Part shown: one piece after another, positions 8,834 to 60,100 of the stretch | Layout of the letters: each line of letters opens with the position of its first letter | How positions within the stretch are numbered: position 1 is the first letter of the stretch | NCBI GenBank assembly: GCA_030062745.1 | Contig: CP099844.1 | Span: 8,765,551-8,829,550 of the forward strand | DNA: 64,000 nucleotides | Source: Capitulum mitella | Taxonomy: Eukaryota; Arthropoda; Thecostraca; Pollicipedomorpha; Pollicipedidae | Reading direction: 5' to 3' | Notes under the pieces: model-generated | What the model saw: only the letters and a program-made list of their open reading frames with translations | Database searches by the model: none | Told to the model about the DNA's origin: nothing | Position numbers and translations under genes: made by a program

Positions 8834-9886
8834 CTAGTCGCATGCTCTTATCACGTTCACGCGTAGTTCGCGAATGAACAGCGTCTCGGTTAACTTCCTG
8901 CTGACGTGGACGCAGCATTTTGTGGCAATCCTGTAGGTCATATGAGTTTCCGGTAGGATGTCCGGTTGACGACGCATATGGAAATGTATCCCAACAGAAT
9001 TCTTGTTGTCTTTCTTGAAAGCCGCTCTGCGGTGCTCCATGAAGCGATCCCTGATTGGCCTGATGCGTTCACCAACGTAGTTAGCGCTGCATAGAGTGTA
9101 GGTAATCTGGTAAACCGCATTACCAATTCGACACTCATCCTCCAAGCCAGCTGCACAGGTTACACAGCGCCATGAGTTATGGCGCAGGTAGGGCCTCTGA
9201 TGTCACTTGTGGTCAGCTGTTTTCTCAAGGGTTCCTCCTAATGGTCCACGATACCCTACAGGCAAGGCTACTCGATCGGACAAGTCTTTGAGCCCGCCGG
9301 CAATGGTCATTATTCACAAATGGCAGCATCGAGATGAGATGATCTTTCTTGCTTTGGGGCTGGCTCGTTTGATGCGCTGGTAGCAAACCTTGATTTCGAT
9401 TCTGGTGATCAATTTTCTAGGGTGTCCACTTTGTTAGAAAACTTGCCTTATCTTCAGGATGTCGCGATTCGCTGTCGAGCTAGCTGAGGATAAGTGAATT
9501 GCTCTACGTAGCTCGTTTTGAAGAGTGTTCTCATTGGTTTTCTTCAGATGGGAAAAGTCGAAAGGAAGGATGATTACAGAATGGGTTGGTTTTACACAAA
9601 GCTCCGTGGTATATTTCTGATCTGGGTGACGGATGATGCGGATGTCTAAAAACGGATGAGAACCATGAGCATGTTTTCGGTCGGCCGTAGGCTTGATGTT
9701 GGGATACACTTCATTCACAAACGTCTGCAGTCGAATGCTTCCTGACCATGTCACCACATTCCAGTCAGATCACCAATACAGCGACCATGGAAGTCAGGCC
9801 TAACGGAGCAGTCGCATGTACTTCAAGTTCCAGGTGATGCAGAAACAAAATGACGACTGGAGAACCCATCTCGTTACCCATGGCGA
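8834..9886 (-). mobile_element. Penelope-like element fragment: end of reverse transcriptase plus GIY-YIG endonuclease
   Basis: On the minus strand the order is: an MGSP motif of the RT palm (codons at 9858-9869); a decayed counterpart of the RYVDD region near 9760-9790 with an in-frame stop; RT C-terminal features including HPFLDIRIIRHPD and a KPTHS motif (within 9434-9757); a cysteine pair region; then a GIY-YIG-type endonuclease core VYQITYTLCSANYVGERIRP followed by RDRFMEH (8834-9145). This RT plus GIY-YIG arrangement is diagnostic of Penelope-like retroelements. Stops and frame breaks mean it is a dead copy. It lies head-to-head with the plus-strand copy that starts at about 9890. Confidence 0.85.
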
Positions 9887-9889
9887 CTC

Positions 9890-10425
9890 CCTTATTCTAC
9901 TTGACGCTGCCGTTTGTGGTGATGATCATTGTCGGCGGGTTCAAAGACTTGTCCGATCGAGCGGCTTTACATGCGGGGTGTCGTGGACCAGTAAGAACAC
10001 CCTGAGAAAGCAACTGACTACAAGCAATCTCAGAGGACCTACCTGCTGGACAACTCGTGGTAGATGCATGGCCTGTGCAGCTGGCCTGGAGAATAAGTGC
10101 GGAGTTGGTAATGTGGTTTGCCAGATCACCTGCACTCTGCGCAGCGCTACCTACGTTGATAAATGCATCAGACCAGTTAGGGACCGCTTCATGGAGCACT
10201 GGAGAGAGGCTTTCAAGGAAGAAGGCAAAAATCCTGTTGGGATACATTTTTAGAAGCGTCATCCACTGGACGTCATACTGGAAACTCATGTGGCCTACTT
10301 AGTAAGAAAGATTGTCAGAAAATGATACGACCACTTTAGCAAGAAGCTAACAGAGACGCTGTTCGTTTGCGAACTACGCCCGAACATGAAAAAACACGTG
10401 ACTAACTGGAACATAATCCCTTAAG
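9890..10425 (+). mobile_element. Penelope-like element fragment, second copy in inverted orientation
   Basis: This plus-strand frame (within 9816-10253) encodes the Cys-rich linker GRCMACAAGLENKCGVGN and the GIY-YIG core VVCQITCTLRSATYVDKCIR, then RDRFMEHWREAFKEE. It is clearly homologous to the minus-strand copy at 8834-9330 but diverged. In the core the expected second Cys of LCSA is replaced by Arg, and a later Gly of YVG is Asp, so the endonuclease is probably inactive. After 10253 the frame continues with a shift to about 10425. The RT portion is absent from this copy. Confidence 0.82.
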
Positions 10426-17890: not shown

Positions 17891-18506
17891 TGCGGCCCAC
17901 CCGGTGACCCGGGAGGAGAGCGACGTGCATCGGCGACGCCTTCGCGGCTCGGCCCTGCTGAGGGCCGCGGACCCCGGCACGTTAGGTCTCCTCGGGTATA
18001 CTGCTCTGGTCTCGGAAGGTCGGCGGACCAAACAGAGCGGTAGCCTGACTGGCCCACAAGTGCTGAGGCCGGAGCTGGTGGAAGAAGAAGTTGGTGGAGC
18101 CTGACACCCTGACACCCCTCCGGCGGTGCTGAGTTCGGGGACGGAGGCGCTGGGCCCGAGGGCTAGGCCTGGCGCCTTGACGCTTTACCGGCGGCGCTGA
18201 CCCCGGAAGCCGGAGGCGCTGAGCCCGGGGGATGGGCCTTACACCCTGGCACCCCGCCTGCGGCGCTGAGCCCAGGAGTGGCCGCGTCCGGGTCGGGCGC
18301 GCCAGCCGGCGGCGGCCGCCGACGCCGCGTCTGACGCTCATCCCGCGGCGGCTCAGCCGCCTTCTGGGAACGGCGACCGCCGGGCGCCGGTCCCCTCAAG
18401 GTGACACCGGCTCCGCCCGGCCGGCCGGCCGCGCCGCCGCCGCCTCAGACGGTCTCCGTCGACGCCTCCGAGCGGACTCACACCAGCGACCTCCGCCTCC
18501 GCCACC
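17890..18506 (+). promoter_or_regulatory. CpG-rich promoter/5'-UTR region of the multi-WAP gene
   Basis: GC- and CpG-rich sequence immediately precedes the start codon at 18507, which sits in a near-perfect Kozak context (GCCGCCACC-type: CCGCCACCATG). No convincing TATA box is visible, consistent with a CpG-island promoter. A GC-rich minisatellite with a period of about 68 bp occupies 18121-18270. The transcription start cannot be placed by eye. Confidence 0.55.
18121..18270. repeat. 68-bp minisatellite in the promoter/5'-UTR
   Basis: Units begin at about 18121, 18189 and 18258 with CGGCGGTGCTGAG-like starts and contain GGAGGCGCTGAGCCCGGGGG-like cores, giving a little over two copies. Confidence 0.65.
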
Positions 18507-18660
18507 ATGCTGGCCGTCCTGCTGCTCGTCTGCCTGGCCCGGCTGGCCGCCGCCGCCGGCCAACAGCCGGTGGAGATCGGTCTCCAGTGTGCTGACGTCG
18601 TCTGCGCCGGCAACGCCACTTGCGTCATCAAAGTCAGCAACGGCGAGCCTGTCTGCCTGG
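18507..18660 (+). CDS. Exon 1: signal peptide and FOLN-like module
   Basis: The ATG at 18507 is in strong Kozak context. The first about 17 residues ([17 protein letters not shown]) form a classic signal peptide with a Leu-rich core and an Ala-rich cleavage region before GQQPVEIG. A four-cysteine module follows, C-x4-C-x5-C-x10-C ([12 protein letters not shown] then VSNGEPVC). It contains an N-glycosylation sequon, NAT. The same spacing recurs in ten modules of this gene and resembles the N-terminal part of follistatin-type (FOLN) modules. The exon ends in phase 1 at a consensus GTGAGT donor (18661). Confidence 0.88.
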
Positions 18661-24600: not shown

Positions 24601-27600
24601 GTGCGTACACTGTGACTGCCTGAGAGAACCAGCATTGTCGTTAGCCGGCCAGTCTCTGGCACTCAGCGTGTGGTCGCAACATTTCGCGCTACGTTTATCA
24701 ATCACGCCTCAGGCTAGACCGCTTCCTGCACATTTCGAAACAGCTTTGAATGTCAAGGGCTATGAGGTAAAGCCATGGATCCATGAGACCACAACTCTGT
24801 GATCGGTAATGAATGGCTGCACTCGGCAGAGACCAACAGCTCTCTCCCAATGGGATCGAATTTCTCCCAGCAACGGTCTGTTTCTTAATAAGATCTTAGG
24901 TTAAGCAGCATGTGACTAAGGGAAAATCATGGCGTAAAGACGAATCCCCAGCAACTGCACCGATCTGTGACCGGCACGGGGCTGCAGCTTCCGTCTGCGT
25001 TCACCGTCTGCTCGCGCCCAGCATGCAGAAGCAGCACCAGTGGACGCTAAGATCTCTCGCGCACCGCGAGGCCAGACCCACTCCGCGGCAGGCGGAAAAG
25101 ATCCCTGCTGAGGGGAAGCAGTGCGTCGATAAACAGCCCCGCGCGACGCCCGACGCCTACCAACAAGCCTGCAGACTCCGTTTTCAATCCGCCGCTGCCT
25201 TTACGAGTCGCAGCTCCGATCGGGACGGATGGAGGGGGAGGGGGAGGGGGCTGTCACCGTTAGGAAGGTCGTCGCGACTCTCTGACGGCCTCGGCGGCCT
25301 TCCCGATCTGGCCGCGGCCGCTCCCAGAGGTGCAGCGGCTCGGCCGGCCGGGCGGGCGCCGGCCGGCCGGGGTGACGGGTCAGAGGTCGGCTGGCCAGGT
25401 CGTGCCGGTATCCCGGATCAGCCGGCCGCGGACCGGACTGGTGCCGTCACGTGCGGTCACGTCACGCCCTCGCGACCCTGACCGGCCCGGTTTTGGCCAG
25501 TTCTGCACTGGCTGGTGTGGTGAGCTGGGTGGCCGGGTTCGCGATGCTCTCCTGTCAGCGGATGCCTTTGCTCTGACAGCCATGAGCCCTGCATCCTGCA
25601 GGTCATTAATGCAGTAGCGTAGATGTGAGGATATCGATAGGAACAGGTGGTGACACATTCACCATATCAATGACCGGCATGTCATGGAATCTGACAACAC
25701 TCGGTATCAATAATGGCAGAAAAGAGCGCTGGAATACGGATAGGAAGCACAAACGGAAGCACTGGCATGCACTGTACGCAACGAGGACCGTTTCAGGACC
25801 GTTTTCTGTTTGCTTTGGCTTTCACCACGTTTCAGCGTTTTTATTAGATTCAGGAAAAGGATGCAATGGTTCCGAGAAGTTGCATATGTGTTGTGTTTTA
25901 ACTTGATAATTTTCCAGACACTTCTCAAAATAGACATCTTGGAAATACACAATATCCTGTTGCACGGACATGAAACATGAGACTCAAGTCGCAATCAACT
26001 TTTTTAGATAAAAATATAGCTGCTTGCCGCAAGATATCTATTTAATATTTGAGACGCATCAATTGCAGGCCGGAAGTCATGTGGTGGAAGGCTTGGACGA
26101 CACTTTTGAGAGATTTTAGGCCCATGTCAATAGCTGGAAAGAAGCGATTTGAAATCCTACTCGGACCCCAATAATTTTTGGACATCTCCAGCAATGCGTC
26201 AACTTTAAACGCGTTTTAAACAGCTAAACCAAAACCCCCAGCTTAGTACACATGAAAGGCGAGCACGTTCTAAACTAACAACAAAAGCAAGCTTTCTTCG
26301 TAGCTATATGAGAGCAAGAAGTGCACTAGGACATTCCACAACAGTCACAATACAAAGTCTTTCTTCTAGTCGTAGAGATTTAGAGAAAAACGTTGTGCCC
26401 TGACCACTCCTTGAAGTTGTGTGGAATGCAGAAAGTCTGCAGCCTATTACGTTTCGACTTATTTTTCCTCTCGGTAAGCTCATTGTGGGAAGAATTCCAG
26501 CAAGACCGCTCAGTGGGATGTCTCATTGTTTCAGTTGACAGGGCAGATCCAGCTGACTCACTGGGTCCTTCTGAAGGCTTCGCATATTTTCTCAGACTCG
26601 TAGGGCTACCAACCAGATTACTCTCGTCTTAGATCAGCTTCATATATTGCACGCTGCTAAAACATTCACGTAATGCACACAGCATGACGTTGCTTGTAGT
26701 TTATTTGGAATACTCACGAGGTTGATGGTCTGGTCACAGTTACTCCGCAAAATCAGCTTTTGTGTTAATGGTAAAGGCCATACAATTATTACGTCAAACC
26801 ACATGGCTCAGACATGTGAAGGTGACTTCATGAGTTACGAAGGCGCGATGCATCAATTTGCATCATGTTCTCTCTGAAATCACCTTTATTTTTTAACTGA
26901 CTTGCTGGATACAACGTCCTGCATGTACTCACGGAAATCCAGTGGAAAAAGAATAAATTGGTTTGAGCTGCCAAGCAGAAAAGAATTTGTTAGTTAATAC
27001 TTTTTTAATTGAAAATCTCTTCCTGCATAGCAACCATATTGCACTTTTTCTGGAATCACTGGGACGAGTATCGCTGCAAAGCTGCATGCCATTGTCAAAC
27101 GTACGTGCACCTATAAATTCCGGGGGCGATTATTTTGCTTGCTGACATGGCACAACGTACGCTGTTTTCAAAGTGAATATCACTTTGCCCCTAAATCATC
27201 ACGACGGCTTTCACGCGAACATTCCTTGTTGAAACAGAACTCAATGCAGCTAAAATCTTTCGCATTTTCTAGTTTTTAAGTTCCTTTCTCAAGCATGTGA
27301 TACATTTCGCAAAGCTGCTGTTTTTCTGAAACCTGGACAAAGTTCACCTCAATCGGCTTCTGATCGTCGCAAAGTGGCACTGTTTCTACGCCGTGCAGTG
27401 CGCGCGTGCCGCGGCGAGTTGCCGACCTGGACTTGATCGGTCTGCCTGCCGGCTCCGTTTTAGGTCGGCCTGTCGCTGACCTGCCGGTTCTGTTTCAGGT
27501 CGGCCTGTCGCTGACCTGCCGGTTCTGTTCCAGGTCGGTCTGTCTCCGACCTGCCTGTTTTGTTTTACGGCGGTCTGCCGCTGACCTGCCCGTTCTGTTT

Positions 27601-30600
27601 CAGGTCGGTCTGCTGATGGCCCGCTAGCTGTGTTTCAGGTCGGTCTGCTACGGACCTGCTGGCTCGGTTCCAGGTCGATCTGCGGTTGACCTGCAGGTCA
27701 TGCCTCCGGCCGGTCTCCCGCTAACCCGGCGGTCCCGTTTCAGGTCGGTCGAAGTCCGGCACCTGCCCGTTCACTCAGCTGGCCGGATGCAACGAGATCC
27801 GCATGATGTGCATGGCCGACGGGGACTGTCCCGGCCGGAAGATCTGCTGCCAGGACAGGTGCGATCGCGTCTGCATGGAGCCAGGTGGGTGACGGTGTGC
27901 GCTGTACTCTGAGAAGGGTGAGGGGTGTCAGCGAGCCTCGGAGAGAGGCAGTCAATGTTAAGCACAGTTCTACGAGCGGTGGGTGTCGTCAAACCGCACG
28001 GCCTTGTTATGGGTATACCTAACTACACGGCATGAAAGTAACGAGTGATACTCATGATCGTTGACTTAAGGATGATGACGGTGGCTGATGGGATCGGTGA
28101 AAGCGGTGTTGGTGTTGCTGGTAATTATGAAGGCGATGATGACAATGATGAAGATGACGGTAGAGATGGGTGACATCAGCTCCCGGCTTGAGCGTGGTTA
28201 CTGACGTCAACCCGCATCACGGGATTGGTAGGTACCTCTCATGGCACGGCGCCCAGATGGCTTGGCGTACCCCTCAGCTCGGGACGCCGAATAAGGGCGC
28301 TGATTAATGGCTGCAGCCGAGCCTGCACCCACACACGGTTCCGCCCCGCTGTAGCGCAAAGCCAGATCTGCTGCAGCAGCCCTCCGTGTGCGTGTTCTGA
28401 TATGCAGGAGGTAACAGACGGTCGATCATCCCGATAACTACCGGCTATTTTTCATATTTCCTTGCCACCTTCAAGGGTATCACAAGGCGCCTGCAGTGCC
28501 TTCCAGCTCCAACCTCGCCAAGATACGCCCACAGGGCTGTCAAGACTGACACTCAGTACCAGCTTAGAGCCAGCACCATCAACCGGCGACCGCACTCCAA
28601 AGCTTCTTTGACGTCCTTGGGCTCGGCTTGCCGCTCGGAAGGCTCGGACGGCCAGCGACGGACAAACGGCTGTGGCCGCCCGCACCTGGCACCGGGCACC
28701 GGCCACCAAACACGCCACCTGCCGAGGGACGACTAGCAACGAGGAACTATCAAGTGACTGGTGAAGCTCATCGTGTTTGCAAGCAGACAACTGGCAACAG
28801 AGCTGAAATATGTCACGGGGCAATTGGCAAGACACCGTAGTTTTCTCGAGGCTGCCGTTTCAGGCCGGAGCATGAATCTGTGAGGGAATAACTGGGACGC
28901 CAAATAACGCCAAACAGAGCGCCACATCTGTGAGGGAATAGCTGGCTACATGGCCCGTGTTCGTTAGGATGCAAGGGATAGCAGAAAACAGATTCCTGGT
29001 GTCTTCAGCATGGACCCAGTCAGGCGATGACACCGAATAATCCTTCAGTGAGGTCGTAGCCATCAATCACGCGGACGGCTGGGTGAGGCGAACAGCCAAA
29101 TCGTCCGCAAACCCTCTCAGAATTGAGAACCGTCCCGCCCGGGGCCTGGAGGCGAGGGAGCTTGAGCCTACCGCAGCACGTGCCGGAACCCCCATGCGGG
29201 TGTGTCCCGGGATTAGTCGTCTGAGCCCCGCGATGGTACCGGGGATAACATTCGTCCCGTCTGGCTGCAGGAGTAGCAGGAACGTCAGACGCACGCAAAT
29301 AAAGCCGGACACAAGAGATGCACCGCCGGACGACGTCAGAACCCAGACAGCCCGGACTCCTGCCGGACAGCGAGGGATGCACCCAGACAGAACCCCCGCC
29401 AGACACACCTGGCCGAGCTGAACACTCCCAGATGTGTCTGGCGGGACCGTTCCTCTGCCAGCCAGGCAGCCAGACACACTCTCACGTACCCGAGTACCAG
29501 TCAGATGCACTCAGACGTAAAAAGTCGCATTCCCGAACAATGCCCGACCCAGGTAGACGCGGCCTGGCAAAGTCGAGCTGCCCGCCCACTTCGCAGCGTG
29601 TATCGACTCCGCACTCCTCTGGAGTCAGGCCCGACACTGTCCACTTCCGGGACCACAGTGCAGCTCTAGTTCCACCCATATCCGGTGCCACGGCACAGCT
29701 CTAGGTCCGCCCACTTCCGGCGTCACGGGGCAGCTCCAGCCCCACCCACTTCCGGTGTGACGTCGCAGCCCCAACTCAGGCTGGGAACGTCGCACCCCTT
29801 AACGTGATGTCAGCCGCTCGATCTTCTGATAAGTGTCTGCGAGCTCCTAGCGCGCCTGTCTTACGCCGGGCGAGATATCGCATCTCTAGACCGTGGTGCA
29901 AGATTCAGCAAATGCATAGCGATCTTGGCGCGTTTCGCAAGAACTTAACCACCCCGTCCTGTCATGACGCTAACCAAGATATGATAAGACCGCTTCTTTT
30001 TTAGTGCGGTCAAACTACAGGTGACGACGTTGGGTAATGTTTTAAATTGACGAACCAGTGAGGTTTATCGGCTTCCTAGGCGGTATGTCTCACTACCTGT
30101 GGGGAAACGAACCATGCAAATGAGCCATGAAAAAATGTAAGAGTTCACAAAACTGTGTCTGATGTGCACTCCTAATTAATTCTGCCATATATTCCACAGT
30201 GCCTCTTAGGAGAAAACGCACGCTAGAGCTGGTGCCTAGACACATTCTTTGATTTATTCGAAACCACAGTCGTTGTCAGGCGTATAGCACGTTTGGGAAT
30301 TTCCTAACCATACCATACCATACCATAACATTTATTTGGGCAAATCCACACGATTGTGGCCATTCCTTGCCCACGAGATCAGAACACAAGGTAAAAGACA
30401 TTAAGTCACGGGCAGAACAGGACAGTTCCGTCATTTTTGTCACTTCAGTCATTTGTCAAGTGGAAACAAATCAGAGTACGATGAAAACGTGGCGCCTGCA
30501 TTTCGCGCATCTCGACTGGCAGCGTATTACACAGTACCGGTCCACGATAATAGAACCGGTGTCGCCCGGCCTCCGTTCTGACTGAGGCACGCGGAGATCG

Positions 30601-33600
30601 TCATCCTGGCGGGTGTTCCTCACTCGTGCCTTGCGGTTCGTTTTGAAAGTGGAGGAAATGGACTCTGGAACTCAATGCAAACGTATTTTGTGTAGTAGTG
30701 AGCGTATGATAGTGTGGACGTGTGATATTTGAAAGACCCTCCGCTTCCATCCACCCTAGCGCTGCCAGAGCATCCGTCTACCGGCTAAATTTCGTTCTCC
30801 CAGACATGACTAACGGCGAAGTTCAAAATCTTTCGAACTTTGGCAAAACTCTTGCGAGTGCCGTTGCCATATACTGGGGTGCAGGAGAGGACGCGGAACG
30901 GCACCAGGGCGGTTATGATGGTCGGAAGGATCTCGGCAGCAAGATAATGATGGACATGCGACAAGCCAATGATGGTCCAGAAGAATTTGCGAATAATTTC
31001 TTGTGCATGTACGTTCCGTGATAGGTGGCAATCAAAGATCATCCCTAGATTTTTTAGTTCGGAGACTGGTTGTATAGTACATATTGTTGTACAGTATTCT
31101 CGAAATTTCCGCCAGATGATGTATATTCCGCAAATTTTGTCTGCTGCCGAAAGCATTCAGTCGTGTTTTGTCAGGGTTAATTTTCAGAGAATTCGCGTGG
31201 AACCAAATGTCGAGAGAGAAAGTTGCCGTTCCATGTGCTTGGACAGGTCTACTAGGGCGGTCCTGTTACCGCAGACATGACCTGGGTGTCATCCGCATAC
31301 TGAATAACGTCACCTTTCGTCATCTTGTTTTACATCAAAACTGCAGGCGTGGTAACGGACCCGCCACCTGATGCGTGAGGAAGAATTTTACAAAAAGTAT
31401 GTATTGCTACCTAGATATTGCCGATTCCACCAACCACTTTCTAGTGTTTGCAACCCTGCAAACTAGCCTATGTACATCACGAAAAAAGCTTCTCAAGGCT
31501 AAAGGGCTGTATAAGATAATGAGTTTTAAGGCATCTTAATGCGGGCTCTTCACCGTCTGTCGCACAACGTCTCGACTGACGAACTGAACAAGATTCACCG
31601 TTATCTTTACGGCATGGTGAATGGTTCACAGGATCTCGAAGATGTATCGGGGATGTCTCTTCCGAGCAAACATGCTGATGGTATGCCGAACCCATTTACG
31701 TACATGCAAGGCAATGACCACTTCGCCCGCAATGCAAGGCATGGTCGAATTTTACCCCGGCTCACGTAGAGAGCAAATGTGACGTGCTCAATGGTGAATA
31801 ACACTCCGAGCAAACGTAACAAGACCGTGCCGGTCTTGAGTGTGGTGTTGGTCTTTCTGGAGGCGAGAACATTAATGGTGATTGTAATATCAGTTTTCTG
31901 CCAGGACAGCGACGACGAGTCCCATGCTGGAGACGGGTGAAACTCGCTGATGAGCCCGCGCTAGTTTCAGACGGGACTCGCTGACAACTGCGCCGCTGGT
32001 TTTGGTGAGGCCATCGACGACAGTGTGGACCTGTCTGCAGGTGCGAGAACTGACGACGACCGTGCCGGTTTCAGGCGAGGACGTGCCGAAGCCGGGCCAC
32101 TGCCCGTCCCGGTTCGCGTTCGGGCCGTGCGTGCACGAGTGCAGCGAGGACGGCGAGTGCCCCGGCAGCACCAAGTGCTGCAGCACCGGCTGCGGACGCA
32201 TTTGCTCCTCACCGTGTGAGTGCAGCAGCCTGTTGCGTCGACCAAACGCCGGCCGGCTTGCCAGCGCGGGCCTTCGGACGCCAAATCCGGTCTTTTAGGC
32301 GTGCTTTGTCGGCTTCCAGAGTCCGGCTGGATTTCTGCGCCATCTAGCTAGTTTGGACCAGTTGGTGCCGTGCGGCCATCGGCAAAACCCAATGGCCTTG
32401 ACCTGTGAAGTCTGTGGCATTGCTGAACCATGCAAGAACCTGATTTAAGCCCTAACCCAAGCATTACAGTCGTAAAATGTCGCCACCGCTGTAATCCACC
32501 TGAAGAGCTCAAGAAAGAGAAGGATCTCAAACTATCCCCTTCATAAGGAAACGATGAAAAAAACGCAGACATTGTATGCCAATGGGTGAATCATCCGCCC
32601 ACTTACTGTCATTCTGAGTGTTATCAATCATCCCTGTCCAAATGAGACCTTAAATCCCAGATGGTATGTATCCATGTAACTTACATTTCATACGTGCTGC
32701 GGGCATTTTCAAATGCCCATAGGACATGTGGTCTACCGGCACTCACCGGTAGATGATTGCCACAATGCAAGCATATTGGATTTCATTTCCTCAAATGACG
32801 CTGGTGGTTTCGGCTCGTCTATCACCTTACACCGTCAGGATGCACTGCCCGCCATGGACGCCAACAGATATTCAAATGCTCCTATTCGCCACTACAGTCC
32901 AGTTTGATTTGCGCGTTACTGCAGGCTAAGTCCTTTCCATCAGCGTGGTTAGCCAATTTCGGCGGCGGGTCGGCCATCACCGGGCTCTTCTGAGATGTCT
33001 GCTGACCAACAGACCTGGCCAAGGCCGGTTCGTGCCCTGTGCCACTGGCCAGAGGCGGCAGCTGCTCCGTCACGTGCAGCATCGACGACGAGTGCCCCGG
33101 CGAACAGAAGTGCTGCTCGAACGGCTGCGGCCAGACGTGCCAGGCGCCATCCGGCGATCACATCTGCCCGCTCGGCACCACCTTCTACAACAAGTGCAAC
33201 AAGTGCACCTGCAGCGACGCCCACGAGCCGGTCGACTGCGAGAAGAACGCCTGCGCACGAGGTGAGCCCCCCCCCGTCCCACCTTGTCGTATTTCGCGCG
33301 ACATCTCTCGTCCTGATGGTGTGTTTGCCATTTGATGGAGGGCCCTGAAATGTAGTGATGTTTTGTTTTGTTATTTACGTAATATCTCGCTTCGATTTCG
33401 GCGGCTTTCTGCCGTTGAATACTTGCCTTAATGCTCCTTTCGATTTTTTTTTTCGGCAGGATAACTCCTGGTGCTAATAAGCAGTTTTTTATCGATTAAG
33501 ACAATGCATGCGTGGCGTGGATCGAGGCCAGATGCCATCATGAACAGATTATGTTGGTTTGCGTGTCAGGAATTTTGGTGTACTTAATTCCACGGGCTCA

Positions 33601-36123: not shown

Positions 36124-39100
36124 GCACCGCTAGCTTAAACAAGCCAACCTTCCTGAACCTTCCGCTGACGAGTGTGACCCACTTCGTCGACAGCCGCGGA
36201 GAAGCCGGGCATCTGTCCGGTTGCCGAGGGCAATGACCCTTGCGGCGAGTGGTGTGACGTGGACGGCGACTGCGCAGGCGGCGCCAAGTGCTGTCGCACC
36301 GGCTGCGGCAAGATCTGCAAGCCTGCAGGTGAGCCGCCGGGATCGGCCGGCATGGCACGCACGGACTAACTGTCCCTAAGATGCTTGCTCAGTGTCCATA
36401 TGCGCATATCTCATAACATCTAAATCGCCGCAAGTAAAATAGAGTTTCTGACTGAGCGTATTCGTGTTTCGTGAGAAGTCATGAGGGTGGCACGCGGCTT
36501 TCACGGAATTCCCGCGAAGATGTCTCTGATTTTCTTTAGGTTGCAGGACAGGGACTGGTATTGTGTAGTGTTAAGACGACGATGGCCTGGAGATGCCAGC
36601 AGCTCAGATTATACTGATGGTCGTGACTGAGTGAGGGATGCTCATACGCCACGAAACAGAGGAGCCTCATATCATCTAAGCATTCATCTCATTTCTGTTC
36701 GGCTCAGAAGGGACTTAGCATTACTTAAAACGAGTGGCCGAAGAGGTCAGGCATACTTTTCTTTGAAGCCGCCTCCTAAGGCTGCGACGTTGTCACGACT
36801 GTGTCCAGCAATTTGCGCAGCGGAATAAACGGTATTCATATTGTGCTTCTGCTTGCTCGCCCCGACAACGAAGACCCATTACAAAGCCATTTACTTCCTG
36901 CTACTCGAAAGAATATCTTCCGAGTCGACAGCGGAGACAGAGAGGGCCTCAAAGTAGACTAGCTCCCGGCGGGATCAAGGTTCTTTGTTCTGTGCCTACT
37001 CCCCGACTCACCCGATACGCTTTCACCGTCGCGCTCCGCAGCGCGCAAACCGTCGCCGTGATCATCTGGCATGCGGCGTTCTCCTGCCACACGGTGGATC
37101 GTTGGGCGGCTCACCTCTGTGACCTGTCCTCTGCAGACGACCCTGGCTTCTGTCCAGCCCAGCTGGCCACGCCCAACTGCTTCTTCCGCGACGACCAGTG
37201 CATCTCCAACAAGGACTGCCCGGGCAGCCAGAAGTGCTGCGACTCGCCCTGCGGCAGAAAGTGCACCACGGCAGGTCAGTTAAACTTCACTCCTTGCCGG
37301 AGCCTGCAAACAATTTAACTGAGCACTATTCGATTGAACTGCGCATGGGAAATGGTGGAGTGACGTTTATGGTGGACAAATTATTCAAATTACCAAAGTC
37401 ATAAAACGGAACCTGATGCATGAGTATGCGTAACAGTTTATTAGTTAACATAACACGTCGACATTCCTGGATCTTTGTCCCCATATCACCTCTGCTGCTA
37501 CTATTAATGGTCCCGCTGGTAGCTGTAGATTTCTGAGCTTCATTATATCATTCCGCATCCAAAATGAAACAGTTCAACGGACATCCAACACTCTGTGCGC
37601 TCTTACTTCGAAATTCGTCTGCTGTTATGCACTATACTTTCCAGAAAACGCCTTTGTTTTTAATGCTCGAGCCATGTGGTCTGACTATTGAGGCTCTGTG
37701 TCCTGAAGATACGTTGTCACTCCAAGTGCTGGAATTTTACTTGTTGATACAGTACTGTTAACAGGTAATTTAAATACGAAGACGGTGGAATAATCCATCG
37801 TAGTTTCGTGGCACCCCATCCAAGTTAGAGCGCTCTACAGTTTGTCTGCTGAGCCCGCCGTAGCCCCCCCCCCCCCCCCAGAACCTCTCCGCGTGTCTCA
37901 CTGGCCCACTCCGACAGGGTCTCCTTGCGAGATACTGCCGAATCTCCTCTTAAGTGTTGCGCAAGCAGCTTGCACTGTTACGGGCGCTCTCCGTCACAAT
38001 TGTGTTTTCCAGGATTAGGTCCAGAGGCTAACACGGTTTCCAACTTTGCACGCATAAGCGATGTCATCTAGACTTTTAATAACACCTTTCTGTAGTGCTT
38101 CACCAGCAACGCTTTTGTTCCATATAAGTTCGCTTTCCGAGTTCCAAGTTCCATATAATGTACGTTTACTTTTGCGCAAATCATTTTGTTTGCTCCCGGC
38201 CTGGACTTCTTAATGAAGGCATTGACGTTGTTTTACGAGCAGCTTATCGAATGCATCTCAGTCCCCATTCATTTCGATCCGTGATGGACCGTTCTCTGGC
38301 ACAAAACACTGTCCACGACAAATTAGGCATGTGAAGGCGTGCTACGTCGCGCATTATCGTTAATCGTGAATCGGTAATTCATTGTTGGATAAGGTGGTGA
38401 TGTATTGACAGCAGGCACGGCAGCCACTGGATCATTTGGTATTCATGCCCCACTCTCACTCGCCGTATCTATGCAGACAGCTTTACTTTCAAAGGCGTGG
38501 AGTGGGTCCCGACGCTAGTGCAGTCTTACAAGGCTTTCCCATTCAATGACTACATTTGCAGGTCTGGAGAGCGCTTAAGCTGTTAAATGCCTACAGGATA
38601 AAGCACGGCTCGTTTGTTATTCAAACCACTGAATCACGCTGGACTTGCTTCAACTCAGGACCGCCGTCCCTTTTTTCGTAGCTTGTAACACATGGTACCA
38701 TTTTTTCGTAGTCCGTATCACATGGTATCATGCTCGCTCTAAAATGTTACTGGAAAACTTCTCAGAGCATGTCAGCTTACACGGGAAATGGAGAAACATA
38801 GCGCATTTTCTGTATCCCCGATTATTTACCGACTACAGGATCCTACCACACGTCTGGCACCCCGGCCGTCGCTGTCGGATGTCACCTTTGCCCAGCTGCC
38901 CAGCGCAGCAGGTCCGGAGGCATACGGCGAGGTCCGACGCATGTCAACGGCCGACGATCAGTGGGGATCCACTTATACGGCCTCTCAACCCGTCCCAAGC
39001 GAAGTTGACCGGGGGACCTACTTACACGGTCCCCGGGCCCGTCACCGGCGGACTTGACCGGGGACCTCCCCACACGGTCCTCGGACCCGTCACCAGCGGA

Positions 39101-42100
39101 CTGAGCCGGGGACCTCCTCACACGAGGTCTGGATCCGTCAACAGCGGGCCTGACCGGAGGGCCTCCCCACACGGCCCCTGGACCCGTCAGCGGCGGGAAC
39201 GGCCCGGGAAGCTCCTCATACGGCGGCACCGGACCGGGCCTGGCCGGCCGGTCTGATGACCGCGGCAGCCCGGTCTCCGCAGCGCGCAGCCATCCCGCGC
39301 CGGCCTCCGCGGCCGGCATCAGTCGCCGCTCTCCATGACGGGCGCGTGGCATGCGGCTGCGCGAGTCGGCGGCCTCTGTGAGGTCGCCGCCAGCCGGCGG
39401 TCACTAAGCCGTCCGTGTCCGGCTCCGGCCCGGCCGGGGCGGCGGCGGCCGCCGCGCGCTTGAACCTGACGCGACCTCCGCAGGGCCAGCACGCGGCCTT
39501 CGCCGAGGCTGTCGTGGTAGGTTTGCTGGTCCCCCAGGAGGCCGCGAGTCCGTCTTAAACGTCACAGCATCGCACCCGCTCCTGACCACGACGCTTACAT
39601 AACTGCAGCGATTAACCGGGATGACTGCGCTGCATCCGCATGCACCGCCTGTTTGCATAAGGCGAATAAAGCGATGCGATCCAAAGTATCCGAGGAAACA
39701 GGAAAAACGTGCTGGCTTCACGAAAGACGTGGTGGACATTCCCACTAGACGTGAGAGGCGCATTAGGAGGATGGATGTTTCCTGCCATTTGCTCGGAGGA
39801 ACTGGAAATGTTAAGATTACATGAGCGTTAGTCGAAAGAACGTTACCTTTATAGAAGTACTCAAAATATGTTTTCAAGGGAGCAATGAGTCCCACATCAA
39901 CTGACTAGATTCTCGAAAATTACCCGCACCACTGTTTCAGAAGCTTAAGCCTTTCTGAGAAAATGTGCGCTACGTGCGGACCGTCCAAAGTCGCTTCAGG
40001 TGGCCATCATGTCATCGTTCGTCAAGGCCGGACTGTCGCGTGCGACGGGCCGTGTGTGGGGATCCAGCGGCGCTTCCACGTACGGCGGGCAGTAAATCTG
40101 TCCCGCCCGCGACCCGGTGTCAGTCGGCCGCGTCTGCGGCGGCGTCGAGCTCTTGACGGGACCCGGGATCGCCGAGAGTGAGGCCGGCAGCGGGGGTCTG
40201 ATGGGGTCGTGGCAGGGCTCTGGTGACGTTGGCCGAGCGGTCCCACACGACCGGAGGTCTGGTCGTTTCCAGGGCTAGCGGCCTTCACCCAGGACCGAGC
40301 TGCGCGGCTCGTGTGGATGCGCTGCAGGCGTGGATTAACTCGTAATCTGTCCGTGTCCAGTTTTGTTTTAACTCTACGAGCGAGAGCGAGAGAACGAGGC
40401 GAGGCTTGTGAAAAAGCAGTTAGCGAGATTTGTACAAATGTTCACTTTTATATGGAAACCTTATGAGCATATTTTGAGCAGCGTTTACTTTCTTTTACAA
40501 GTTGCTCGGCTTATTTTCTATTATCTTTTGCCTGTTGCCCGACTCGAGACCTACTCTGCTTATGCACTCCATATTTTTATTAGCACACAATGCCACCTGT
40601 CAGCTTACGCCGCGTGCAAGTCTTATGTTCATGTTTGTGGTTTTAGCAAAAGGTTGAATCAGAAAGCAACCACAGATAGCGTCCTTGGATTGATGTAATT
40701 CGGCTCTGAATGCCACTTTTCAAATCCCCAGCGGCCAGCTTATCGTATGCTGTATTGCGGTTAGTTCTAGAAACTTTCAAACGAAAGGTCTCACAGTACA
40801 AGGCAATGATGGTCACTTGTTCCAAAACTCCCTTTTCATATATACATCAAGTCATTTTTAGGTATATGATTCCTTTGTAATGATAAGGTTTAACGTTTGC
40901 GTTTAGCATGGCATTAGATATTTCTGGTCTGCGTTGTCAGCAGGTATAGGCATCTTTGGCACAACTATATTTATAAGATTATTAAAAAAAAACAAATGGA
41001 GCATGAAGATGGCTTTGTCCAAACAACTAGTTTTCATGTTATTTAAACGTTCCGTGAATTTGATTCCGGTGCCCAGTATGGTTTCTCGGAACAATGTTTT
41101 TTTTTATATTTTGTTTCATATAAGATTGTACTAAACCAGGTACGATCTTATTTCTTGTCTTCTGACATTTGCCTGTTCTAATCCATCCACTCAGAGCTGA
41201 TTGCTTCATGTGGGCAAGTTGTCCTTCGATATCGAGGATTTGGGACTAAGATGTTGTGCGTGCATCTGTTTCAGTTGGCGAAAAGCCCAATTTGTGCCCG
41301 AACCCGGACAAGTTGACTCTCAGTCCGGGCATGTTCTGCAAGAACGACCATCAGTGCCCACACGAGCTCAAGTGCTGCAAGAACGGGAGGGGAGACATGG
41401 GCTGCACTACGCCGAGTGAGTTACTCCTTCATTCCACTTCTCCCAATAGATCTGAACTGACAGGTCTCATGACTTTACTGCATGTCTGCACTCATACTAT
41501 AACCTCTAGTCGCAGTCCATCAACTGATTTTTTGTTTTATTCGGAGTCACAAACGTGCGGCACCCAGCTACTGGCGACTATTTTCTGCAACGCCGATGAT
41601 TTCTGACGTCGACGATATGATACTCGACCTAGGGTCGTCACCACGCCCCGAGACTGATGCGTCTGACGCTATAGCCAGTTATCAGTTTTGACCTCCCCCA
41701 TTCCCTTCCAATGGTTTCCTCGGTCTCGTGCCGTGCCCGTGAAGACACCACTGCTGCTGAGGCAGGGCCGTTCTTTTCGGCTTGTACCTCGGGGCTCAGC
41801 AGTCGCGAGAGGTCAGACCGACCAGACTGGTGACCTTCCCGGCTCGAGAGCTGGCCCACCAAACCGGTCGCTGACGGAGTTGTGTTCGCCGTACGGACGC
41901 CCGACGTCCCGTCGCCTTATCACGACGAAACGGCATTACCAGAAAGGATTAAAGACGGCTTTGCCACCGTATCTAGGTTACGACAGAAGCGATAACATTC
42001 CATCAGAATTCGCACAGGTGTTCAGTGCAATATCTGCGAAAGCAACGCCAGCCAAGTAATTACTAGCCGTTATGATAAGAATGCATTTGATATTTCAAAA

Positions 42101-48100: not shown

Positions 48101-51100
48101 GAGCAGTTCCATGAAACTTGATGGCTTCCCTACCTATCCTTTGCACGTTTTATGCCACATTTTCAGTTGTTGTCCAGCAACGGAGCCAGGCCCTTTTTTG
48201 GGAGGTACCTCAAGCCATTTTTGGTAGTGTTGAAGGTAGAAGGAAAACAGCTGCTAAAAATGGAGACTTATGGGTAAATAACTGGAAAAGACATACAACG
48301 ATATTTTTGTTGTTATGGACTCATTTTACAAGGTTACATCAGTGGCAGAATTAAAAACTCATTTTACGCAGGGTTTTCGGCTCAGATTTGAACATGAAAA
48401 GAAATATACATGCCTCAAGACGGTATTCTATTGCTGTGCCTCAAATTTCAGATAGATATCAAGTCAGATCACGGAGCTATGGCTGAAAATATCCATGTGC
48501 GTACCTTATATCACGACGATCATAAATAGAAGATTGACGAATTTGATACATCCAAGTGATTTAACCCTATTCCCGGAGGGCTAGACGGTATGGTCGATTC
48601 CCGGCAGGGGGGGGATTCGGCCCCTCCTGAGATCTCGAGAACTACTTGTCCGATTTCATCGCAACAAACGGCAATCGATTTTCCGCCACGTGAACTACAT
48701 CTTAAATGTCGAAATTTGTGGATACAGGGGGGGCAAAAATGTAAAAATGGGGGGTACTTTTGGACTTCTTATAACTCCGTTGTTTATCGGCCGATTTCAA
48801 TGAAACTGGTATGAATCGAAATATTATGGATAGGGCTTTTACCGTGAGTCTACAAATTTGAAATTTTGAGAAAATTCACGGGCGTTCACAGGGTTTCAAA
48901 AATAGGCGGATTAGTTTTCTAACAACTGAATGAACAAAAAAGGTAAAAACACTTTTTTGGCTTCTGCTAGTCATGCTATGCTAAAGAAGTACAAATCGCA
49001 TTACAATGTTTGTATAATGTTAGCATAGGCGGTGCCAGGGACATGAAAAAGGGGGAACTATCATGGTCACACGTTCTTCAGATCAACTTGTGACCTTTGA
49101 CCTTAAATGACCTTCAGTGACCTTGGGGTCACTTGGAATGATCTCGTGTGTATTTGACATTATCTGTAAACGTTTTCAATCATTTGAATTCAATCTATTT
49201 CGAAAATTTCATTTTGTGGTTATTGCGATATAGGGTACGCGCACTGACATTTTAGGTCATAGCTCCGTGACCCGACCTGATATCAAACTGAAACTTGCTA
49301 CACAAGTAGAGGGCACCCTTCTACGTCATATGCATTCCTGGTTTGGCATTTAATTAAGCGGCGCCAAAATTATTGCAAAAAAAATAAATTTTGAATTTTG
49401 ACCTTCACCTGACCTTGTAAAGTGACCTCAGATACACAAAATTTTGTGTGCTCATTACCCAACTATTTAGCTATACATCCATATAATGTTTTAAATTTTA
49501 TCTAAAAACTCTGTTTTTGGGAGACATTGTCCTTTTACCCTCAACATGGCCAAAAATGGCATGAAGTGCCTCCCAAAAAACGTTGCCTGGCTCCGCTCCT
49601 GAGCAAAGTAGAATTGTGAAATTTTGTCACAGCACGTAGAATAAATAGCTAGGAAAAGTGACTAAGTTTCGTGAAGCTGCGTTAAAAAGCCTTGAATTGG
49701 CAAGCAAAAAACCCGAGGGGCGTGGATTCAGCCCCCATGCCGGGAATAGGGTTAAATCGTTTAAAACACTATGAAATAAACCCAATGTAGTTTTCCACGA
49801 GGTCATTGAGGTCATTCGAGGTGAAAGGCCATAAGCATATGGGATGAAAATGGGACCATGACAATGCATCTTTGTCATGTCCCTGGTGCCGCTTCTGCCA
49901 ACATTATGCAAGTAATGTAATATGATTTGTGCTCCCCAAACGTAAAATGATAAGTATAAGCCAAAACAAAAACGGAACCTGAGCTTTATCCTGTGGGCGT
50001 CTACGAATTTTGCCAGTTTCAAACGTTTGAACCAAAGGGAAACTGCCGGTGACGAAATCTCGATGCATGCCAATTGCATTAAAATCAGTCCATAAACATC
50101 GGAGGCATAAAGTGAAAAATACTCCCTTTTTATCTTTCTTGACCCTCTGTATTCGCCTTTGTAATTCTTTCAGAATTTCTTGTTATAGAAGGGTATTTCA
50201 CGTTTTACGTTATGGAGAATCGATTACCGTTTCTTGTGATCAAATTGGACCGGTAGTTCTCGAGATCTCGGGGGGGGGGGACGTTTAGGCACCCCAGCGT
50301 ACGTGTATGCATCCATACCTTATGGGTACGGCTTCAGTGTGTTCTGCAATAGTGTTCAATGTCGCGGTCAAATTTTGGTCACGGAAGGCGGTTGGTTTAA
50401 GTAAGAATATGCAACACGCATTCTTCGGAATCCGTCTCATGTGCTAAAATACTCGCGGCTAGCATAACTCAGGCTCAGATACAATCCCGAGAAGGACACG
50501 GCTAAGAGCGTCATCCGTCTTTGCAATAATTACCGAGGTGACCAATGACTTTTCAAGATCGAAAAGAGTGGGAAATGGGGAGCCCCGCGGACGTTTCTGT
50601 CTGGATCCTCAGTTAGGCTCAATATTCAGGTACTTGCCATCCACTGGGATCCCCCGGGGACGAATCTCCTTATGTTAATGGATAAAAAGCATATGATGCA
50701 TTCACTAAGCAAAGCCTTGAATAGATGCCAGTTCGCATGCGAAATGTTTTGTTTGAGGAGGACTATTACTGCCATCTATTGTGCGGTCATGATACTAACA
50801 GTACCTCCGTTCTGATTTGGGAGACTCCGATTATGACCATGACGGCATCTCTGAGCGCAAACGCTTGCCACAGTTGCACTGTACATGGTCCGTACGGACG
50901 ATACCCATTATTTGAAACTGGTATGGCTTGTTTCAGATCTGTACACCTGTGACCACAAACGCTGCCCGCCAGGATACGTCTGTCACGAGAGTTTCACCGG
51001 GGCCCGCTGTGTCAAAGGTATGCCGTCTGTTAAGAGCTTCACCGGTCCCGCTGTGCCAAAGGCATGCCGTCTGTTGAGAACCTCGCCGGGGCACACTACT

Positions 51101-57100: not shown

Positions 57101-60100
57101 ACACAAACATTGATTTAACCTATAATTATTTAAACAGATCAGCAGCTTTTGCTAAAAGAAACCGTTGTAAAAGTGCTCACTGAAAAGATATACGTCCAAT
57201 CTTCAACAATTTCATATCTTTCAATCCAGGGACGCTGGTCATCAGCAAGCAAAGTTTGCCTGTCAGAATGGACCAAAATCTCAGGGGTATCAAACTGTTT
57301 CGTATGTGGTCTGATTAATGGCATGCATATCAAGTTTGGTCGACCCATGCACGTATGTTTGTGATTTATGACAGTGCGACAAAAATGAATTGTAAAATAA
57401 TTTTCTCACCTAATATGACAAATAAAAAAATGAATGTTTAAACTGTGACACACAATAGTCTCATGAACACAGAGAATGCTTTAACTGCAAACGAGCATCA
57501 AGGGTTCAAGAAAACAAGTCTGTACGCTTGATGTATAGTTCTGCGCATTAAAAACAGATATGATAAAAACTCATATCAACAGGATTTTCTATTTTCTTTG
57601 GGGGTGATTACCATGTCAAGATATCATTCATTTGTCTGTTATCAATACCCTCCGCCTGCTTCTTCCTATCTTCTTATCTCCTTATCAGCACCCTCAACTT
57701 CCATTTCTTTATGGCCAAACGTACTTGCGTTTTTATGCTATTTTTGACATCGCGTTATCGAACTGCCTGAATTCTGGCCACGAAAACCTGCCGCGTTTTT
57801 TTCCGGACAATATTCCCGTTTACTTCCCGACAGCTTAAAGCGAAAAGTGCGGCGCTGACATGATGCAGATATTAAACAACCACCTGCTCCGGAAGTTGCT
57901 CGCGCTCGAGTCTGGCACTACATGGACACGACCTAGCCAGCATCGGGCCGCCGCGTCGCCCGTCCATGACGTCACCGGCACGGCGAGGGGGAGGTTATAA
58001 CAGGCCGTCGCCGCCGGCCGGCCGGCACACACTCCGTTCTGTCGAGGTCGGGTCGCACGGTGGCTCAGCTCGCGCTGGGACAAGCTGCGACCGGCGCGGC
58101 GGTCGACACTCTAGCGGCGGGCACGAGAGAGGGACCACTGCCCGCGGCGCGGCGTTCGCCCGTTCTCCGTCTCTGCCATTGTCCCGCCGACGGCCGCTAT
58201 AGTTCGGAACCGGCCGCCGACGTCGCCGACTCGGTCGCCTCGTGTCAGGAACTGCAGGCCATGCTGGCCGAGTGCGCGCTAGTGCTGAGCTGTTGGGCGG
58301 CGGCCGGCTGCGGCGCCGACACCGGCGCGCCTTCGCCGCCGCCGACCAGCCGGCGGCAGGAGGTGTCCGACGTGGCCGCTGCCGTCCGAGGCGCGTACAC
58401 GCCGCCACCAGGGTATTATCTGCCGCCGCCGGGCGCGGCCCCGCCGCCGGCAGCAGCCGTCCCGTACCTGCGCCCCCCGCCGGCAGCACTGCCCCGCGGG
58501 CGGGACCGGCAGGCTGCGCTGGGGCCCCCTCGGCAGACGGGCCGCCTCCCTGGGTCGGCACGGCCAGGGCCTGCGTCTGGGCGCGGTCCCGGCCTGGCCT
58601 CCCCAAAGAGGACGTCAGGGGCGGTCCTGCAGTACCTGTCGCCGTCGGCGGGCGTGGGAGCTGGCCTCGCGTCGGCCGCCACCGTTCATAGAGGGAAGCT
58701 GGGCGCCGGCTCGGGCCTCACTCCGCGACGCAGGCCTCTCGTGGTGTACTTTGAGGACCTGCACTACGCCAACAAGGCGACGGAATACGGCTTCTGTGAG
58801 AGATACTGCGCCAACCCACAGAGGACCATAGGTAGGCAGAAAATTCATTGCGCCAGATGCGTCCAGTAGCTGAGGCAGTGTTGGGCCGGAAGCATGGGTG
58901 TACAATTGGAACGAATTTTGGTACAGAAAAACAGATTCATGGCACCCTGAAATATGAGACCGATAAAGTTTGCATAGAACTTTATTTTCTAAAGGAAGAA
59001 AACATATGAAAAAGTCAAAACATTGGCATGGAATTACGCACAAGGAATTTCCTTCGGCATGGAAAGCTCCATATGCTAAGTATACAAAGTTACACCTCTG
59101 GCCGGAAGACATCGCATTCTCGGCCGGGACGGGGAGTATTGGGTAGGATGGCATGTTCTGCCTCTGTTGCATGGTATGGGGGAGGAATCACTCGCATTAC
59201 GATGAGTTATATTAGGCTGGGGCTCGTGTCATAAACTGGTGGCGAAGGCTTAGTGCACTGCTTGATGTGGACGCTTGTATCTGTAGTTGAATGTGTCAAA
59301 AAGCACAAACAAACCTCACTAACGCCATTTGCTGGCAATGGGCCATTTCTTTTTGGATAGTCAAATTCATAGCCTTCATGTTCCAAAAAGATGAATGCAA
59401 AATTTTGGTGTTGCCCCCTTACGCCATGCAAAGACCATTTGGTGCTAATAACTTTTTTAGTGCAGCACATCCATCGAACCAGAATTTGATCGATGTCTCC
59501 CTTTTGTATGGTGATGTGACGTCTACGTGCTTTTTTCTAGCCTCGTTTTAGTGACGTTACCAGCCTTGTACAGATAAGCTGCATGTTCAGTCAATGAAAT
59601 AGTAAGTCGCCGAATACACAGCACACATTTTCTTTGTCTCGGTCTGGGTTTGGCTCCTTAGGATAGGCCATTAGAAATACACGTTAATAACCATGTCAGT
59701 CGGAGACAGTAAAGTTATTGTTCAATTCTTAAACGTGATCCCTCACTCACCGTAAACGCACAACATGTTGTGTAACTGTGACCCATTCCTGTCAATCTGC
59801 TCACCAACGTCAAGTCCCTGCAGAGGTCATGCGGTCTGGCACGTCTCTGTGACCCTGCTCGCTGACCGTTCGACCCTTCAAAAGTCATGACAGCCCGAAA
59901 CGTCCATGTGACCTCTTCACTGACCCTGTGACTCCGCAGAGGTCAAGGCGGGCAAGTGCCCGCCTCTGCGACCCGGCAGCTACCGCGGAGACTGCCATGA
60001 CGAATGCAAGTACGACTCGGAGTGTCCGAAGCAGCAACGCTGCTGCAACAACGGCTGCGCCAACGTCTGCCTCGACCCTATCTTCAGGAAGACGTGCGAC

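Follow-up and report, generated by a model that had tools for sequence, protein, structure and literature searches.

The host gene and its first WAP exon

In the 64,000-nucleotide stretch of contig CP099844.1 analyzed here (hereafter the window), a minisatellite with a 35-bp unit lies across the boundary between an intron and the first WAP exon of a gene with multiple WAP exons. The gene model, on the forward strand, comprised 12 exons, namely a presumed first exon and eleven WAP exons; it reached position 63503 and may go further. A scan with a WAP pattern by itself recovered ten of the eleven WAP exons, and the eleventh (37137) was found by eye in the list of open reading frames. The joined reading frame was open throughout the model, and its 728 residues matched Pfam WAP in 11 stretches (E 4.7e-90).

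The presumed exon 1 (18507-18660, + strand) carried a start codon, a stretch that by eye resembled a signal peptide, one cysteine-rich segment, and the donor CTGG|GTGAGT. The first WAP exon of the model (27744-27884, + strand) is followed by a donor GT at 27885, and its assignment as coding sequence was supported by the Pfam WAP match of this exon alone (E 2.6e-9). The acceptor AG occupies 27742-27743 (+ strand), with the exon starting in phase 1 at 27744; an earlier interpretation of the same DNA (the sequence-only reading) had put the acceptor at 27743, which is corrected here to an AG at 27742-27743 and a first exon base at 27744. Like the other ten WAP exons as far as their ends could be placed, this exon is bounded by an AG and a GT that are both in phase 1. 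This uniformity is partly a matter of choice, because acceptors were placed by eye with a preference for phase 1 and donors were drawn from lists of phase-1 donors only. The label "exon 2" assumes that no exon lies between 18661 and 27744, an interval in which only the WAP pattern was sought.

Further observations concerned other exons of the model. The acceptor placed for the WAP exon at 33013 fitted poorly to a matrix of the gene's own acceptors (-5.49 bits, leave-one-out) and had CTGAC only 7 nt from its end; the true acceptor of this exon may differ from the one placed. In the same exon, the WAP domain was followed by a pacifastin-like segment (33141-33261; PF05375, E 0.0003), a match that falls short of the curated cut-off. 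Together with the WAP content, this weak likeness may hint at an arthropod, perhaps a barnacle, as the source of the DNA. Short cysteine-rich segments that by eye had a similar spacing were present in exon 1 and in the last four WAP exons (18507-18660, 59940-60176, 60642-60875, 61220-61450, and 63273-63503), and the two that were tested against Pfam yielded only weak best matches, to EGF_MSP1_1 and Lustrin_cystein.

A 35-bp array in register with the acceptor

Tandem Repeats Finder (TRF) delimited the array at 27445-27750, with a period of 35, 8.7 copies, 75% matches, and 0% indels, and its score of 276 was the highest among the 27 TRF rows for the window. Self-match at lag 35 was 0.74 inside 27464-27743, as compared to only 0.19-0.26 at lags 33, 34, 36, and 37. 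A search with CTGCCNGTTCTGTTTCAGGTCGG at up to three mismatches gave four matches, every one of them in the array, where 0.00 were expected (100 shuffles), and a 26-base pattern had no exact match in viral_contigs.

Eight full 35-bp units, in register and free of indels, make up 27464-27743 (+ strand), with the consensus GTCGGTCTGCCGCTGACCTGCCGGTTCTGTTTCAG, and the last unit ends in the real acceptor AG. They are preceded by a shortened first unit (unit -9; 27435-27463, + strand) that was aligned by eye, lacks approximately 7 bp, and ends in TTTTAG, the most distal decoy acceptor (exon base 27464). At the other end, the first seven exon bases, GTCGGTC (27744-27750, + strand), agreed with the unit consensus at 7 of 7 positions, and the array thus spans the intron-exon boundary (27743/27744) in register. 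AG|GT was kept at six of the eight upstream positions, in five of these as AG|GTCGG; at the other two the AG had been lost, to AC before 27569 and to CG before 27709. The array and the 35-bp step described in the sequence-only reading were real; where that reading gave nine to ten units, most with TTYCAG|GTCGG, the register showed eight full units and one shortened unit, with AG|GT at six of eight upstream positions.

Units -8 and -7 (27464-27533, + strand), with 34 of 35 bases identical, were the most alike pair of the array, and unit -5 was close to both (31 and 30 of 35 bases in common). Units -4 to -1, on the exon side, were more diverged and shared 20-27 of 35 bases with other full units.

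Among the 23 model junctions tested for boundary duplication, the array occurred at one. The best single local copy of the acceptor at 27744 covered 21 of 30 bases (P 0.03, 1500 random positions, with repeats included in the background). Best copies of 19 of 30 bases at the acceptors 32075 and 59940 (P 0.08) were unconvincing as boundary duplications, and no boundary duplication was found at the other eight acceptors (P 0.18-0.81) or at the 12 donors (P 0.43-1.0). Elsewhere in the window, in a scan run without a null distribution, the best copies of the unit matched 23 of 35 bases on the + strand and 22 of 35 on the - strand.

The following intron of the model contains a second array with a 35-bp period (29641-29769; 3.7 copies, 75% matches, 0% indels), at a distance of 1756 bp from the closest model junction. 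Kinship of this array with the first was rejected, as the sequences were unrelated (P 0.85). Additional minisatellites at 18099-18278 (69-bp unit), 38988-39196 (48-bp unit), and 50988-51092 (44-bp unit) did not touch any model junction. A search of 18000-40000 against Rfam at gathering thresholds gave no match. Open frames at 8834-9202 (- strand) and 9804-10253 (+ strand) appeared by eye to be copies of one retroelement fragment, which is perhaps Penelope-like.

Splice elements of the units and predicted consequences of decoy use

The consensus unit holds the elements of a whole 3' splice site, that is, a branch-point-like CTGAC with its A 19 nt ahead of the last intron base, a pyrimidine stretch, and CAG|GTCGG. 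At the real acceptor, the presumed branch point is CTAAC (27721-27725, + strand), the second A of which is likewise 19 nt before the last intron base. The motif CTRAY occurred 14-34 nt upstream of 7 of the gene's 11 acceptors (the site at 27744 among them), vs. 7.7% of the AGs in the window. At the 19-nt place, CTGAC was present before 27499, 27534, and 27604, so that three of the six AG-bearing decoys were complete by this measure; TTGAC was present before 27709, where the AG had been lost. The decoys at 27464, 27639, and 27674 had an AG and no branch-point motif at 19 nt, and 27569 lacked both.

Acceptor strength was scored with a matrix built from the gene's ten other acceptors, picked by eye. 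The real acceptor scored 6.73 bits, with one decoy above it (27499, 7.45 bits) and five below (27464, 6.61; 27604, 6.59; 27674, 5.66; 27639, 5.34; and 27534, 4.68 bits). These scores are a rough guide only, because leave-one-out scores of the ten other acceptors were widely spread (-5.49 to 12.12 bits) and because 21 of the 519 AGs in and just past intron 1 outranked the real acceptor, one of them (27499) in the array. Nearby AGs that were out of register (exon bases 27628, 27697, and 27755) scored 3.84, 1.52, and 0.67 bits, respectively. As sequence features, the decoy acceptors proposed in the sequence-only reading were thus supported, by AG|GT at six of eight positions, by CTGAC at three of these, and by scores that fall among those of the other acceptors in the gene.

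Each of the six decoys, if used, would bring a premature stop codon. Joined to exon 1, five of them reached a stop within the array (27464 at 27625, 27499 at 27582, 27534 at 27614, 27604 at 27687, and 27639 at 27722), and the sixth (27674) stayed out of frame as far as exon 6 of the model, where a stop followed at 36234. The frame was shifted by four of the six, in agreement with the earlier statement that most upstream copies shift the frame; two (27534 and 27639) were in frame and were nevertheless stopped. The sequence-only reading had named a single in-frame copy, ending at 27638, whose stop at 27722 was confirmed, and had overlooked the second (27534, stop at 27614). Use of the out-of-register AGs at 27628 and 27697 would lead to stops at 27687 and 27804, and the AG at 27755 lies 11 bases inside the exon, out of frame.

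The predicted RNA fold of 27428-27800 was better than that of 100 shuffles (z -3.85), and the 280-nt array folded better than all but 2 of 150 column-permuted arrays. Because column-permuted arrays folded worse, the order of bases within the unit, in which a palindrome (GACCTG...CAGGTC) was seen by eye, appears to matter to folding. A role of RNA structure as a splice-site switch was rejected, since real and decoy AGs were predicted to be equally buried: the predicted unpaired value was 0.00 for the real AG and 0.00-0.06 for the six decoy AGs. With the real AG as buried as the decoys, predicted structure would not select the site.

Origin and significance of the array

We consider it probable, at roughly 70%, that this array is a boundary minisatellite of the type termed "mirage," in which an exon-start segment has been duplicated in tandem and splicing goes to the final copy. 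A piece of 35 bp from the beginning of the first WAP exon, with its end AG abutting GT, would have been tandemly duplicated, and the array would have grown by slippage or unequal exchange. Since the consensus copy holds CTGAC, a pyrimidine stretch, and CAG|GTCGG, the intron would thereby have come to end in a row of look-alike 3' splice sites, of which some were later damaged. The last copy would be the site used, because only this copy keeps the frame and WAP coding and because, under exon definition, it lies next to the exon with its donor. Intronic copies of the duplicated exon start are most likely ignored for the most part. If upstream copies were used, the resulting premature stops would cause the mRNAs to be removed by nonsense-mediated decay, and the array is probably mostly harmless. 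Support for this reading came from the one exact 35-bp register shared by array and acceptor and from the complete agreement of the first seven exon bases with the consensus. The alignment of exon bases 8-35 described below, the constant 19-nt spacing of CTGAC or CTAAC ahead of 27499, 27534, 27604, and 27744, decoy scores of 4.68-7.45 bits next to 6.73 bits at the real site, and the stop reached from every decoy also speak for it.

Mirages were described in amphioxus as minisatellite-like tandem repeats over an intron-exon boundary with AG/GT in many units, with examples in the globin genes BflGb6 and BflGb9, Adh3, and TnC, all from lancelets (PMC3087553, PMC3902484). According to the authors, the Adh3 data and RT-PCR (reverse transcription-polymerase chain reaction) of their own suggest that regular splicing is not interfered with, although cryptic use is possible (PMC3087553); the Adh and TnC mirages are reported to generate no aberrant mRNAs, and imperfect repeats in PGBD5 were likened to mirages (PMC3902484). 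These descriptions of AG/GT-rich arrays with regular splicing provide a published precedent for the reading proposed here. The boundary-spanning repeat and the many AG/GT units resemble mirages, and the array is imperfect like the PGBD5 repeats. It differs from them in its host, a multi-WAP gene, in its unit length of 35 bp (10-72 bp in Adh3 and 150-160 bp in BflGb6), and in the likeness between full units, which was 20-34 of 35 bases here and 81-100% in BflGb6. Further features described for mirages are concerted evolution inside the array with diverged edges and length polymorphism between alleles or tissues (PMC3087553, PMC3902484); with regard to the former, the most alike units were found at the upstream end, beside shortened unit -9, and not in the middle of the array. 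On balance, assignment of the array to the mirage kind appears likely.

Other arrays showed partial likeness. Intron gain by tandem duplication of AGGT segments (the Rogers model) has been described for potato RdRp in a paper that also cites fission yeast SPOG_01682 and SOCG_00815, with a 24-bp AGGT array crossed by introns, and vertebrate ATP2A1 (PMC4974935). Tandem AGGT-bearing copies with inherited splice signals are common to these cases and the present one, and in the fission yeast genes, too, the intron crosses the copies (PMC4974935). In contrast to intron gain, an existing intron between domain exons seems here to have been extended or to have had its end moved, and no new intron was shown. 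Modern human introns are reportedly associated with tandem arrays, to go by the title of a 2007 study by Zhuo et al. CeRep25B, a palindromic intronic minisatellite of Caenorhabditis elegans with a statistical link to alternative splicing (PMC4039745), shares with the array the motif GGTCTGC, four of whose six occurrences on the + strand of the window lie in the array (27439, 27572, 27607, and 27642), which may be coincidence; a boundary duplication is not among the features given for CeRep25B in the available part of that account (PMC4039745). A VNTR (variable number tandem repeat) of dog MCHR2 was rejected as a parallel, as the part of the report available concerns a T-box binding motif and not splicing by the VNTR (PMC8912139).

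The repeat crosses the exon boundary, as its consensus matches exon bases 1-7 without exception and may extend as far as base 35. Positions 27751-27778 (+ strand; ACCTGCCCGTTC...TCAG) may represent a diverged remainder of a unit, for which one of two alignment tests was favorable. In a gapped global alignment with the rest of the unit, exon bases 8-35 scored 11, a value reached by 10 of 2017 28-mers of coding sequence outside the exon and by 50 of 19882 random 28-mers of the window (array left out); all ten homologous WAP exon starts scored lower (-9 to 4). Should the exon portion be a genuine copy, the exon is likely to be the source of the repeat, since the first WAP cysteine and its neighbors, encoded by ACCTGCCCG, are under coding constraint. 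A spread of the repeat from the acceptor itself, suggested as one possibility in the sequence-only reading, is favored by the common register and by a likeness that enters the exon.

Several points weigh against an origin by duplication of the exon start. The more favorable, global test was added after the local one and chosen afterwards, with a single scoring scheme and for bases 8-35 only. In the local test, the exon start gave P 0.011, 0.022, and 0.023 (lengths 35, 46, and 60, respectively), and the paralogous exon at 44601 was as good (P 0.006, 0.019, and 0.025); P values for the exon at 32075 were 0.276, 0.027, and 0.041. Support for a putative extension of the repeat into bases 8-35 is moderate, and such an extension is perhaps real. 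Moreover, an AG was combined with CTGAC at 19 nt in only three of the eight upstream positions, the acceptor matrix is rough with its ten sites picked by eye, and a minisatellite that overgrew a pre-existing acceptor would look much alike. It is, however, unlikely that an unrelated intronic minisatellite overgrew the acceptor by chance, with an accidental likeness of the exon past base 7. In favor of such an origin, other arrays of the window, with units of 30-69 bp, touch no model junction and the exon extension is only moderately significant, but the consensus carries the gene-like layout of branch point, pyrimidine stretch, and acceptor at fixed spacing, with the AG in exact register.

A regulatory function, in which the copies would act as competitors of the real acceptor and their number would set the share of productive mRNA via frameshift and decay, is similarly improbable. 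It would be consistent with decoy scores close to that of the real site, with the premature stops brought by all six decoys, and with the enrichment of CeRep25B in the introns of those C. elegans genes that are subject to multiple alternative splicing decisions (PMC4039745). However, the seven branch-point and AG columns, counted by hand, were conserved in 6.86 of 8 units on average, no better than the other 28 (6.68), so that these eight units gave no sign of selection that maintains or removes decoys; two of the eight upstream AGs were lost, four of the eight positions had neither CTGAC nor TTGAC at 19 nt, and the lancelet papers report undisturbed splicing in the parts cited (PMC3087553, PMC3902484). 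Column conservation, predicted structure, and these two papers thus left the earlier proposal that length variation of the array could tune splicing without support. Still less probable is a recursive, self-erasing array, in which CAG|GTCGGT would act as acceptor and donor and splicing to a decoy would rebuild TGG|GTCGGT, which would then be spliced to the real acceptor. With a donor matrix built from the 12 phase-1 donors of the model, which include no array site, CAG|GTCGGT (27534, 27604, 27639, and the real acceptor) scored 9.12 bits, in the top 0.5% of 3717 GTs and within the spread of the model's 12 donors (4.66-11.24, leave-one-out), and the hybrid TGG|GTCGGT scored 6.79 bits (top 1.9%); an alternative hybrid of exon 1 and decoy, TGG|GTCGGC, scored 5.57 bits. 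GTCAGT is used by two of the 12 model donors. As judged from sequence, juxtaposed AG|GT with both halves scoring as splice sites was best at 27534, 27604, and 27639. The remaining three decoys were weaker donors (27464, 6.08; 27499, 7.90; and 27674, 4.46 bits), and AG|GT simply follows from an exon that starts with GT, with no selection on AG|GT seen. Known recursive splicing, moreover, is mostly found in introns much longer than the intron of approximately 9 kb considered here. In a ratchet-like variant, to which we assign the lowest probability, decoys would capture the upstream donor first, every capture would restore a donor (AG|GTCGGT), and repeated steps would walk the junction to the real acceptor; if this were true, a potentially harmful repeat would be tolerated or would even help to remove the 9-kb intron.

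The locus offers a natural set of 3' splice sites that resemble one another and have lost branch-point motif or AG to different degrees, in front of one presumably functional site. The array would lend itself well to testing, in a natural setting, how a choice is made between look-alike splice sites, how the proximal acceptor wins, and how boundary minisatellites are tolerated. If the host is not a lancelet, the mirage phenomenon would extend beyond the group in which it was described (PMC3087553, PMC3902484).

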